Source of the DNA: Desulfovibrionaceae bacterium
GTDB lineage: Bacteria > Desulfobacterota > Desulfovibrionia > Desulfovibrionales > Desulfovibrionaceae
Direction of reading: 5' to 3'
Assembly: GCA_031082225.1 (NCBI GenBank)
Contig: JAVHLG010000005.1
Span: 1 to 64,000 of the forward strand
Length of the DNA stretch: 64,000 bases
Program-made: the position numbers and the translations under genes
The notes under the pieces: generated by a model
What the model was told of the DNA's origin: nothing
The model's database searches: none
Seen by the model: only the letters and a program-made list of their open reading frames with translations
In this document: positions 24,273-28,501 of the stretch, one piece after another
Position numbering within the stretch: position 1 is the first letter of the stretch
How the letters are laid out: the number at the start of each line of letters is the position of its first letter

Positions 24273-25196
24273 TTAGGCAAAGGCCTTTTCGAAGGGCGGC
24301 ACGACCTGCTTTTTGCGGGACAGCACGCCGTCCAGCCACACGGACTCGCCAGCCACGTCCACGCCGAAGGCCTTTTTGACCACGGCCGGATCGTCGGAGA
24401 CGATCAGCATCTCGGAGCCTTCCTTCATGATGTCGGTCAGAAGCAGGAACACGCTGTGGTTGCCGTTCTCAGCCTTGACCTTCTTGCAGTCGGCCAGGAG
24501 CTGGTCCTTGATGGGGGTCAGGATGGACAGGTCCACGACTTCCAGCTGGCCGATGCCGACCTTCTTGCCGGACATGTCGAAGTCCTTGTAGTCGCGGAAG
24601 ACCAGTTCGCGGATGGGGGTGCCTTCCACGGCGGACTTGACCTTGAACATCTCCACGCCCAGGGCCATCATGTCGGTGACGCCGACGATCTTGGCCAGGG
24701 CCTCGCAGGCCTTCTTGTCGGCCTCGGTGCAGGTCGGGGACTTGAACATGACGGTGTCGGACAAAATGGCGCAAAGCATGATCCCGGCGATGGGCTTGGG
24801 GATTTCGATGCCCGCAAAGTCGTACATGGATTTGAGAACGGTACAGCTGCAGCCCACGGGCCAGACCCACATCTCCAGGGGGTTGGTGGTGGTCACGTCG
24901 CCCAGCTTGTGGTGGTCGATGACGGCCACGATCTCGCCCTTGCCCAGGTTTTCCAGGCTCTGGGACAGATCGGTGTGGTCCACGAGGATGATCTTTTTGT
25001 CGGTGGCGTCGGTGAGAATCTCGGGGGTGGCCACGCCGAACTTCTCAAGCACGAACTTGGATTCCGGGTTGATGGGGCCCTGGGTCACGGGGATGACGTC
25101 CATGCCGCATTTTTTCTTGAAGTAGTCGGCGGCGCCGATGGCGGTGGCGACGGTGTCCGTGTCCGGATTTTTGTGTCCAACAGCATAAACAGCCAT
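24273..25196 (-). CDS. ppaC: Manganese-dependent inorganic pyrophosphatase (family II)
   Basis: The 307-residue DHH-superfamily enzyme has the metal-binding motifs VGHKNPDTDTVATA, LVDHTD and VIDHHKLGD, and a C-terminal SRKKQVVP substrate loop. It hydrolyses pyrophosphate, which in sulfate reducers is released in large amount by sulfate activation to APS. No CBS/DRTGG insertion is present, so this is the short unregulated form. The ATG at 25196 is preceded by AGGAGGA with six bases' spacing; the TTG at 25202 is less likely. It follows the PTS genes but has its own promoter. Confidence 0.96.
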   Translation of the reverse strand: MAVYAVGHKNPDTDTVATAIGAADYFKKKCGMDVIPVTQGPINPESKFVLEKFGVATPEILTDATDKKIILVDHTDLSQSLENLGKGEIVAVIDHHKLGDVTTTNPLEMWVWPVGCSCTVLKSMYDFAGIEIPKPIAGIMLCAILSDTVMFKSPTCTEADKKACEALAKIVGVTDMMALGVEMFKVKSAVEGTPIRELVFRDYKDFDMSGKKVGIGQLEVVDLSILTPIKDQLLADCKKVKAENGNHSVFLLLTDIMKEGSEMLIVSDDPAVVKKAFGVDVAGESVWLDGVLSRKKQVVPPFEKAFA

Positions 25197-25256
25197 ATTC
25201 AATCCTCCTGATGGTTTAATAGCCTTGTGGGCTTCGTCTCCAGGAAAAGCTTGTGA

Positions 25257-25347: not shown

Positions 25348-26045
25348 TTAAGTCAACACCAGGAACCACAGGATGCTGATCCCCACCCCCACGGACAGCA
25401 CCACATAGGCCGGGCGATGGCGCAGGGACAGGACGCCCCCCAGGCTGCCCAGGATCCACAGATGGGCGAAGGATTTGGACTGGTGCTCAAGCAGGGGGTC
25501 GATCATGGCGAACAGCAGGTTTCCGGCGGCGATGAGCCCGGCCAGGGCCAGGGAGAAGCATACCCCGTTGATGATCGCCATATCCGTCAGGGAACGCAGG
25601 ATGAGTCGGCCCGGCGACACCACCCTGCCCTTGCGGGCGGCGGCGTCCATGGCCTTGGCCTGGGCCGAGGTCTCGAACCGGCGGTGGAACGCCTCCAGGC
25701 GGGCGAAAAGCAGGGCCAGGGGCAGGGACATGACCGCCGCCGCCAGCACCCCCGGGGCCTGGGTCAGGCCGAAGCACCGGGCAAGGGTCAGGGTGGCCAG
25801 GGTGGCCGCCGCCTGGTTGGGCGGGATGAACGTCCCGGCGGGAAAGAGGTCGAGCCAGAACAACTCAAAAAAAATGGCGATATTCATGCATGTGGGGATA
25901 TCCCCGAACACGGCCCCGTAGATCAGTCCCACCACCAGGGGCCGATCCAGGGGGAACAGATTCACCGAAAAACGCAACGACGAAAACAGGGCAAAAAAAA
26001 AGCGACCAGGAGGATATGGGCCACAAGCCCGGTATCGATATGCAT
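25348..26045 (-). CDS. PTS mannose-family IIC component, apparent -1 frameshift at a T9 run
   Basis: The main frame encodes a membrane permease (FPLDRPLVVGLIYGAVFGDI, then FPAGTFIPPNQAA) of the AgaC/ManY type. Its only in-frame start is a TTG at 25977 with no good ribosome site. The true N-terminus (MHIDTGLVAHILLVAFF) starts at ATG 26045, which overlaps the IIB stop as TGATG, but that frame hits a stop after a run of nine T (minus strand; 26001-25993). One extra T joins the frames perfectly into a 232-residue protein. The interval is 698 bases, one short of a whole number of codons. So this is a sequencing error, a broken gene, or a gene expressed by slippage. Confidence 0.7.
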
Positions 26046-26510: not shown

Positions 26511-26945
26511 TCAACCCTCGGCGACCTTCTTGCGCAACACCTCCCCGGCCACCACGATTCCCTGGCATCCCGCCTGTTTGGCCTCCACGGCCAGCTTCTC
26601 AAGGGGGGTCGTGCGCGAGGTGAGGATTTTGATCAGCATGGGCAGATTGACCCCGGTCAAGACCTCAAGGCGGCCGGAGCCAAGCAGGGACAGGCTCATG
26701 TTGGTGGGCGTGCCCCCGAACATGTCCGTGAGCACCAGCACCCCTGCCCCGCGATCCGTTTCCGCGATGGCCTCCTTTATGGCGGCCAGCGTCAGTTCCA
26801 CCTCGTGGGAAATGTCCACGCTGATGCTGCGACAGTATTCCTGGGGACCGATGATGAACTCGGCGGCCTTGAGCAGCCTGCCGCCAAAATCGGTATGGGT
26901 GGCGATGACCACCCCGACGGAGGGAGTTGCGGAGTCTGCTTTCAT
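26511..26945 (-). CDS. PTS mannose-family IIA component
   Basis: The 144-residue protein has the ManX-type IIA fold with the phosphorylated histidine in VGVVIATHTDFGGRLLKAA (near residue 17) and the later VLVLTDMFGGTPTNMSLSLL. HPr donates the phosphate. No HPr, enzyme I or IID gene lies in the window, so the set is incomplete here. It is the first of three tightly packed PTS genes and lies 87 bases after rapZ on the same strand. Confidence 0.9.
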   Translation of the reverse strand: MKADSATPSVGVVIATHTDFGGRLLKAAEFIIGPQEYCRSISVDISHEVELTLAAIKEAIAETDRGAGVLVLTDMFGGTPTNMSLSLLGSGRLEVLTGVNLPMLIKILTSRTTPLEKLAVEAKQAGCQGIVVAGEVLRKKVAEG

Positions 26946-27032: not shown

Positions 27033-27914
27033 TCAATCCTTGTCGATATGCCGATGCTCCAGGGAGACAGTGTATCCGGCCTTGGCCAATCTGTCAAAAA
27101 CAGCCTCGGCCACGGCCACGGAGCGATGTCGGCCTCCGGTGCAGCCCACGGCCACGGCCAGCCGGTAACGGCCTTCCCGGGCATACAGGGGCACCAGATA
27201 CAGCAGGAAGTCGCTGAGTTTCTCCAGGAAGGTGCATCCTGGCTCGCCGCCCAGGACGTAGCTGGCGATCTCGGGGTCTTTCCCGGAAAGGGGGCGCAGG
27301 GCGACGTCGAAATAGGGATTGGGAAGAAAGCGCAGGTCAAAGATGAGATCGGCCTCGATGGGCGGCCCATACTTGAAGCCGAAAGACATGATGTGGATCT
27401 TGAGATGTCCGCTTTTTCCGGCCAGAAAGCTCCATTTTTCCTGAAGGCTCCGGCGCAGGTCGTGGATGGAGAAATTGGTGGTGTCGAGAATCAGGTCGGC
27501 GGCGTCGCGAAGCGGCGACATGCGCTCGCGCTCCAGAAGCACCGCACGTTCAAGGCCGAGGTTGCTGCTCTCCAGGGGATGCGGCCGCCGGGTGGTGGCG
27601 TAGCGGCGGATGATTTCCTTGGTGTCCGCCTCGAAAAAAACGATCTGGATGTCGCCGCTGCGGTTTTTGATATGGGCCAGGGCCTCGCCCCACTCCCGGT
27701 CGAGATCCTCCTGGCGGACGTCCATGCCCAGGGCCAGGCCGCAATAGCGTGTATCAGCCTGTCCCGCGAACAGTTTGATCAGGATCGGGGCCAGGCTGGC
27801 CGGGAGGCCGTCCACGCAAAAAAAGCCCAGATCCTCAAAGATCTTGAGCCCGCTGCTTTTGCCCGATCCGGAAAGCCCGGTGAGAATGATGACCGGAAAG
27901 TCATGTTCGGACAT
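27033..27914 (-). CDS. rapZ: RNase adapter/nucleotide-binding protein RapZ (YvcJ family)
   Basis: The 293-residue protein has an N-terminal P-loop (VIILTGLSGSGKSSGLKIFE), a LDTTNFSIHDLRRSL motif, and a C-terminal domain with VAVGCTGGRHRSVAVAE. In enterobacteria RapZ binds the sRNA GlmZ and controls GlcN6P synthase; outside them the molecular role is less settled. It lies between ptsN and the PTS IIA gene, the usual rpoN-hpf-ptsN-rapZ order. Confidence 0.93.
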   Translation of the reverse strand: MSEHDFPVIILTGLSGSGKSSGLKIFEDLGFFCVDGLPASLAPILIKLFAGQADTRYCGLALGMDVRQEDLDREWGEALAHIKNRSGDIQIVFFEADTKEIIRRYATTRRPHPLESSNLGLERAVLLERERMSPLRDAADLILDTTNFSIHDLRRSLQEKWSFLAGKSGHLKIHIMSFGFKYGPPIEADLIFDLRFLPNPYFDVALRPLSGKDPEIASYVLGGEPGCTFLEKLSDFLLYLVPLYAREGRYRLAVAVGCTGGRHRSVAVAEAVFDRLAKAGYTVSLEHRHIDKD

Positions 27915-28048: not shown

Positions 28049-28501
28049 TCATGCCGCCTCGGTCAAGACCCGCCACAGGCCCTGCCTGCCCTCGGCCTGC
28101 AAAAAGGCGTCGCGGAAACCCTCGTCCGAAAGCAGCCGGGAGATGTGGGCCAGGATGCGCAGATGCATCCCGGCCACATGCTCCGGAGCGATGACCAGAA
28201 AAAAGATGCGGCACGGCTTGAAGTCCAGGGAGTCGAAGTTCACGCCCGCACGGCTTCTGCCCACCACGATGATGATCTGCGACAGTCCGGGCATCTTGCC
28301 ATGGGGGATGGCCACCCCGTCGCCGATGCCGGTGGTCCCCAGGGCCTCGCGTTCCAAGAGAACCCGGTGGGCCTTCTCCATGTCGAAATCGGGGAAGGCC
28401 ACGCCAATGGGGGCCACCAGTTCGGCCAACACGTCGGATTTGTGTGTGGCCCGCATGTCGTCCAGGACGAATTCGGGCCGCAGATACTCCTCAAGCTTCA
28501 T
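28049..28501 (-). CDS. ptsN: PTS nitrogen-regulatory IIA protein
   Basis: The 150-residue protein has the IIA-Ntr/fructose fold with the active histidine in GIGDGVAIPHGKM (near residue 71). These proteins usually regulate other processes by phosphorylation state rather than carry sugar. Its place between hpf and rapZ, downstream of rpoN, is the standard ptsN setting. A 66-base gap separates it from hpf and 134 bases from rapZ. Confidence 0.92.
   Translation of the reverse strand: MKLEEYLRPEFVLDDMRATHKSDVLAELVAPIGVAFPDFDMEKAHRVLLEREALGTTGIGDGVAIPHGKMPGLSQIIIVVGRSRAGVNFDSLDFKPCRIFFLVIAPEHVAGMHLRILAHISRLLSDEGFRDAFLQAEGRQGLWRVLTEAA

Follow-up and report, generated by a model that had tools for sequence, protein, structure and literature searches.

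Transcriptional slippage that joins or separates reading frames is known from several bacterial genes, as described in the available parts of two accounts (PMC1088944, PMC5009743). In Shigella flexneri mxiE, a non-templated base added at a U run joins two overlapping frames (PMC1088944, PMC5009743), and in Thermus thermophilus dnaX, nine identical bases (A9) within a cellular gene set the ratio of its products, the genomic frame specifying the long product and slippage the short one (PMC1088944). In ant and aphid endosymbionts, homopolymer frameshifts are rescued by slippage, with 12-50% corrected messages (excerpts of PMC5009743), and in many bacteria, according to PMC1088944, selection against slippage becomes visible at a length of nine A or T.

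The locus analysed here, encoding the membrane subunit IIC of a mannose-type phosphotransferase system (PTS), appears closest in mechanism to mxiE, insofar as the sources cited above describe that gene, since both have overlapping frames at a U run and, as we infer for IIC, both require slippage for the long product; however, mxiE is a plasmid-borne regulator, whereas IIC is a subunit of a transporter, encoded on the chromosome and conserved across an order. It shares with the dnaX gene, as described there, nine identical bases in a cellular gene, with the direction reversed, and with the endosymbiont genes, as portrayed in the same excerpts, a homopolymer frameshift and putative slippage rescue, although theirs are poly(A) runs in reduced genomes of very high AT content, whereas here 63 of the 163 loci have a GC content above 60%, and both the length and the phase of the run are fixed. 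Endosymbiont homopolymer frameshifts are reportedly also the topic of Wernegreen 2010, judging by the title of that reference. None of mxiE, Thermus dnaX, insertion sequences and the endosymbiont genes is a chromosomal transporter gene held at one exact run length and phase over an order. Thus, slippage as such is already known, as mxiE illustrates, and it is the width and strictness of its conservation that appear unusual here.

The gene lies in a 64,000-nt stretch of DNA (hereafter, the window), in a row with other PTS genes, the features being:

25993..26001, minus strand: run of nine T (T9), the proposed slippage site, with length, position and codon phase conserved across the order
25962..26045, minus strand: IIC as read without slippage, 27 codons plus TGA, comprising the first half of membrane helix 1 and then a short out-of-frame tail
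25348..26001, minus strand: bulk of the IIC permease (PF03609), read in the shifted frame and extending from the run as far as the stop codon
26045..26506, minus strand: PTS IIB, mannose/fructose/sorbose family (PF03830), its stop overlapping the IIC start
26511..26945, minus strand: PTS IIA, mannose family (PF03610)
27033..27914, minus strand: rapZ, upstream in the same gene row
28049..28501, minus strand: ptsN-like IIA (PF00359), upstream in the same gene row
24273..25202, minus strand: manganese-dependent inorganic pyrophosphatase, the next gene downstream of IIC

An earlier note on this DNA, made from the letters alone, had described a IIC gene that starts within the IIB stop codon, breaks off after 27 codons and continues one frame away beyond a run of nine T, and its anatomy holds in every part. 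The stop codon of IIB overlaps the start codon of IIC in the sequence TGATG (26047-26043, minus strand), the T9 run (26001-25993) begins 44 bases after the IIC ATG at 26045 and contains exactly nine T, and reading from this ATG yields 27 codons before the TGA that ends at 25962, 40 nt past the start of the run. The remainder of the permease can be read in another frame, one base off, that stays open as far as the TAA at 25350-25348, and the coordinates give 232 codons for the joined gene. The IIC product scores 54.9 bits with the PF03609 profile, above the Pfam cut-off of 26.3, and thus belongs to this family; with the NCBIfam profile TIGR00822, its score of 36.8 falls below the cut-off of 339.85. 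In the window's own genome, a strong hairpin is predicted at 25902-25952 of the minus strand, about 40 nt after the run.

Considering the comparisons reported below, we regard it as likely that this is a working IIC gene whose full product depends on programmed transcriptional slippage. RNA polymerase would add one extra U at the T9 run in a share of the transcripts, and ribosomes would read through these messages to make the whole permease; on unslipped transcripts, they would stop about ten codons after the run and release a peptide of about 27 residues. Because the run lies in the middle of membrane helix 1, the unslipped message is not expected to yield a working permease. Such an arrangement could serve as a fixed dose control, keeping IIC at a set fraction of the IIA and IIB made from the same gene row. 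That the polymerase is the slipping agent, how efficiently it would slip and the role in dosage are what we infer from the conserved run and frame.

Relatives were searched with the open permease part of IIC (209 residues). Among GTDB records, 23 loci were found, 19 of which carry T9 in the same phase, one, from Salidesulfovibrio brasiliensis (L022), has T10 and is in frame, and three lack the run. Within the order, IIC is present in 250 of 348 genomes. Among the matches listed, 180 loci came from 179 of the 250 gene-bearing genomes, and omission of three loci without the N-terminal region left 177 loci, each from a different genome, with one genome per species. The alignment of the T run in relatives for which the earlier note had called shows exactly nine T at the same alignment and codon position, with the same one-base shift required, in 162 of these 177 genomes. 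They represent 42 of the 48 genera and all six families, namely 125 of 138 genomes in the window's own family, and 1/1, 13/14, 8/8, 10/10 and 5/6 in the others. The 163 loci treated as shifted in our statistics include one (G005) that a later check found to be in frame, the true count being 162; G005 is accordingly contained in the codon-usage, RNA-structure and hydrophobicity statistics (n = 163), and the tree described below codes it as shifted.

The exceptions are few. Thirteen of the 177 loci are in frame, either with T9 preceded by A (G005), with T10 (G075 and G221), with T8 (G235, G255 and G298) or with shorter runs (G018, G114, G115, G168, G256, G283 and G339); G221 and L022 are probably the same record, being identical in sequence around the run. 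One genome, 65% complete (G120, locus L099), has T9 in another codon phase and is still one T short, a natural hint that it is the length of the run rather than its phase that is kept. Another (G254, locus L088) combines T10 with what seems to be one additional G in a G7 run some 80 nt downstream; its state is unclear, and the two one-base homopolymer differences look like either assembly error or real decay. No T7 or T8 run that requires a shift occurs among the 177 loci, all three T8 cases being in frame.

These counts bear on two readings that the earlier note had left open. A homopolymer tract close to the gene start, together with in-frame T10 versions in G075 and G221, would suit a phase-variable switch in which replication changes the run length in the DNA and thereby switches IIC between on (T10) and off (T9) from cell to cell. 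However, such a tract should show several lengths and mixed states, yet the 162 genomes, one per species, are all off at exactly nine, and T10 occurs in only three of the 177, with the three T8 runs in frame. Tract length and state therefore do not vary between relatives in the manner of a phase-variable locus, and we consider this explanation very improbable. As for a sequencing error or a decaying pseudogene, a one-base homopolymer frameshift is the classic error type, and G254 carries T10 plus a second one-base difference. Nevertheless, the same run recurs in 162 genomes, including single-contig assemblies, which excludes a base-calling error, and purifying selection acting on the permease part rules out a pseudogene, so that this reading retains practically no probability. 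Transcriptional slippage, which the earlier note had listed among its options alongside low-level expression, is in turn strongly supported by the order-wide conservation of an exact run that is short by one base.

The selection in question was assessed in six pairs of relatives. The pN/pS of the permease part is 0.08-0.23, compared to 1.7-2.5 for the same DNA read one base on, and to judge from this substitution pattern, the permease part evolves as a protein under purifying selection. In the 14 codons before the run, 0-3 nonsynonymous changes in about 32 sites were counted across the six pairs; in the three pairs from the window's genus, the per-site count of synonymous changes is clearly the higher, and the other three pairs hold too few changes to judge. 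The indication of selection on this short part is thus weak. The locus shows two of the features expected of a slippage gene, a homopolymer of around nine A or T where the frames meet (T9 in 162 of 177) and a selected change of frame between two coding frames, the pN/pS before the run being informative in three of the six pairs only.

The residues just before the run also speak to the proposal that the locus makes two proteins, a leader peptide and, by internal re-initiation, a permease lacking the first half-helix. In the window, a GTG overlaps the TGA of the short frame (GTGA), and in 47 of the 163 loci, the 75 nt preceding the run include an ATG, GTG or TTG in the permease frame, at a distance of 18 nt in about 30 of these loci. 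Against this, such a start is missing from the other 116 loci (only starts upstream of the run were counted), and the residues preceding the run are hydrophobic in the first frame, as in most in-frame relatives with one continuous protein: their mean hydrophobicity is 1.32 in the first frame versus -0.84 in the permease frame, and in 157 of 163 loci, the first frame exceeds the permease frame in hydrophobicity, the in-frame G005 being among the other six. We therefore find re-initiation hardly credible, and return to a single protein joined across the run, probably by a slipping polymerase.

By itself, a T9 run is unremarkable, because 15 of 100 dinucleotide shuffles of the window, in which it occurs once, hold at least one such run. 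It is its conservation, rather than its presence, that goes far beyond chance. Given three Phe codons after a small residue, the codon usage of the genes themselves predicts the run in about 7 of 163 loci, compared to the 162 of 177 genomes in which it was seen, and in the 63 GC-rich loci mentioned above, the expectation is 0.45 of 63. Elsewhere in the same gene bodies (104,601 nt), there is no T run of nine or more, and T8 occurs 26 times. The codon before the Phe codons specifies Ala, Gly or Ser (Cys in 8 of 162) and ends in T each time, compared to 16% of the Ala, Gly and Ser codons elsewhere in these genes. The 12 bases flanking the run on each side are variable, with 142 distinct contexts in 163 loci. 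The Phe triplet itself is strongly conserved in an alignment of 21 rows; because 20 of these rows were chosen from T9 loci, this conservation is not separate evidence.

The own genome contains 33 other runs of nine or more T or A (L233-L263), which were inspected by their open frames only. A conserved change of frame was shown at none of these 33. One of them (L261) at first sight resembled IIC in its frame change and was rejected as a second slippage gene, with no convincing protein recognizable by eye. Some of the runs lie inside one long open frame (e.g. L242, L251, L257 and L260). Slippage-prone runs may thus be tolerated in other coding stretches of this genome.

A programmed -1 ribosomal frameshift at U_UUU_UUU or U_UUU_UUG, with the RNA keeping its nine U, would produce the same joined protein, and we hold it to be unlikely. 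A long U run inherently contains U-type ribosomal heptamers, both of which lie in phase within T9, and the codon phase is identical in 162 of the 163 shifted genes. Moreover, U_UU.U_UU.U is among the motifs that shift at more than 0.10% without stimulators in E. coli, according to the portion of PMC4066793 available, although U_UU.U_UU.G is missing from the motif list in that portion. However, nine T are retained where seven suffice, and no single heptamer needs all nine; because a heptamer requires seven, a T at either end of the run would be free to drift, so that the conserved length favours slippage. No common stimulator of either kind was found: no stimulatory structure is present 5-65 nt past the run (mean z 0.15 in a sample of 60 of the 163 loci; none in 42 genus representatives), and an SD-like 4-mer within 20 nt upstream occurs in just 11 of 163 loci, a rate without a control.

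Further downstream, 40-nt windows at +60..+100 have a mean z of -0.75, with 27% below -1.5 (163 loci). When each genus is represented by a single locus and the windows are 56 nt wide, the value for the same region is -0.31, the minimum being -0.86 at +120..+176, and we treat these z-scores as no clear signal. In 14 genus representatives, no common structure is apparent at the position of the hairpin predicted in the own genome, and no upstream hairpin that might aid slippage was found. We favour slippage by RNA polymerase over ribosomal frameshifting because there is no common RNA structure and no T7 or T8 run that requires a shift, although the two may act together.

The distribution of the run implies that it is, on the available sequences, a feature of this order. 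Outside the order but within the same phylum, 98 sampled genomes had a match (114 minus 16 belonging to the order), and each of the 20 IIC genes fetched from them can be read in a single frame, beginning at a start codon upstream, none with a T run longer than six near the start. In a FastTree phylogeny, the 177 loci of the order and the 20 from outside fall on opposite sides of a branch with a support of 100, which suggests that the run is a trait of the order and probably dates to its ancestor. This fast tree has many long branches, and within the order, it requires at least eight changes between the shifted and in-frame states. The in-frame genes are probably later reversals, the direction of the changes being deduced from the tree. 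With 13 in-frame genomes among the 177, and no fewer than eight transitions required by the tree, the slip seems to be dispensable.

One of the in-frame genes allowed the fold of the joined protein to be predicted. A PDB sequence search with the in-frame relative gave no match at 0.001, so the fold was compared instead, using a structure model of the naturally in-frame T10 relative L022 (231 residues), built from 24 unchanged sequences. The model has a mean pLDDT of 89.3 and places the Phe triplet (residues 14-16) inside the first helix (5-25). Against the PDB, ranks 1-9 have a probability of 1.00, with E-values of 0.003-0.016, none at or below 0.001, and query TM-scores of 0.57-0.66, followed by a probability of 0.06 at rank 10. 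Five of the nine matches with a probability of 1.00 are titled Man-PTS; 9wjw (two chains), 7xno and 6k1h are what we take to be Man-PTS entries. Thus, the in-frame relative is predicted to fold like a Man-PTS IIC. The IIC of this order resembles the mannose/fructose/sorbose PTS IIC family (PF03609) in both profile match and predicted fold, and differs in its small size (231 residues for the in-frame relative) and in the change of frame needed for its expression.

The partners of such a permease are present. IIA and IIB are adjacent to IIC, and IID, located elsewhere in the genome, was found in all 12 genomes checked; in the own genome, it lies on another contig, near HPr, EI, smpB and alaS. 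With IID, HPr and EI found besides IIA, IIB and IIC, all parts of a mannose-type PTS are encoded in this genome. A search of a plasmid collection gave no match. The portion of Comas et al. 2008 consulted describes a putative mannose-class PTS in D. vulgaris (PMC2405797), and the word frameshift is absent from the main text of that paper.

Besides its putative role in dosage, the slip might be responsive to the state of the cell. Sulfate activation produces pyrophosphate, and a pyrophosphatase gene lies directly downstream of IIC in the own genome. A speculative extension, which we rate as quite improbable, is that the share of U10 transcripts follows UTP or pyrophosphate, making the slip a sensor of energy state for the output of the PTS permease. 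If true, this would be order-wide regulation exerted via RNA polymerase alone, without a protein or RNA regulator.

We found no earlier report of this IIC as a frameshift gene in the titles and first abstract lines of the papers listed by our searches, although it may have been detected before; the words Desulfovibrio, mannose and sorbose are absent from the main text of Antonov 2013 (PMC3711429) and from the searched part of the main text of Atkins 2016 (PMC5009743). Standard gene calling likely reports IIC as a pseudogene or misses its start, and because of this, the mannose-type PTS may be misinterpreted in these bacteria. If slippage is indeed responsible, an order of sulfate reducers would have retained a chromosomal transporter gene that looks broken, with slippage as a requirement and not just something tolerated, and the in-frame relatives would offer natural comparisons for why the slip is kept.
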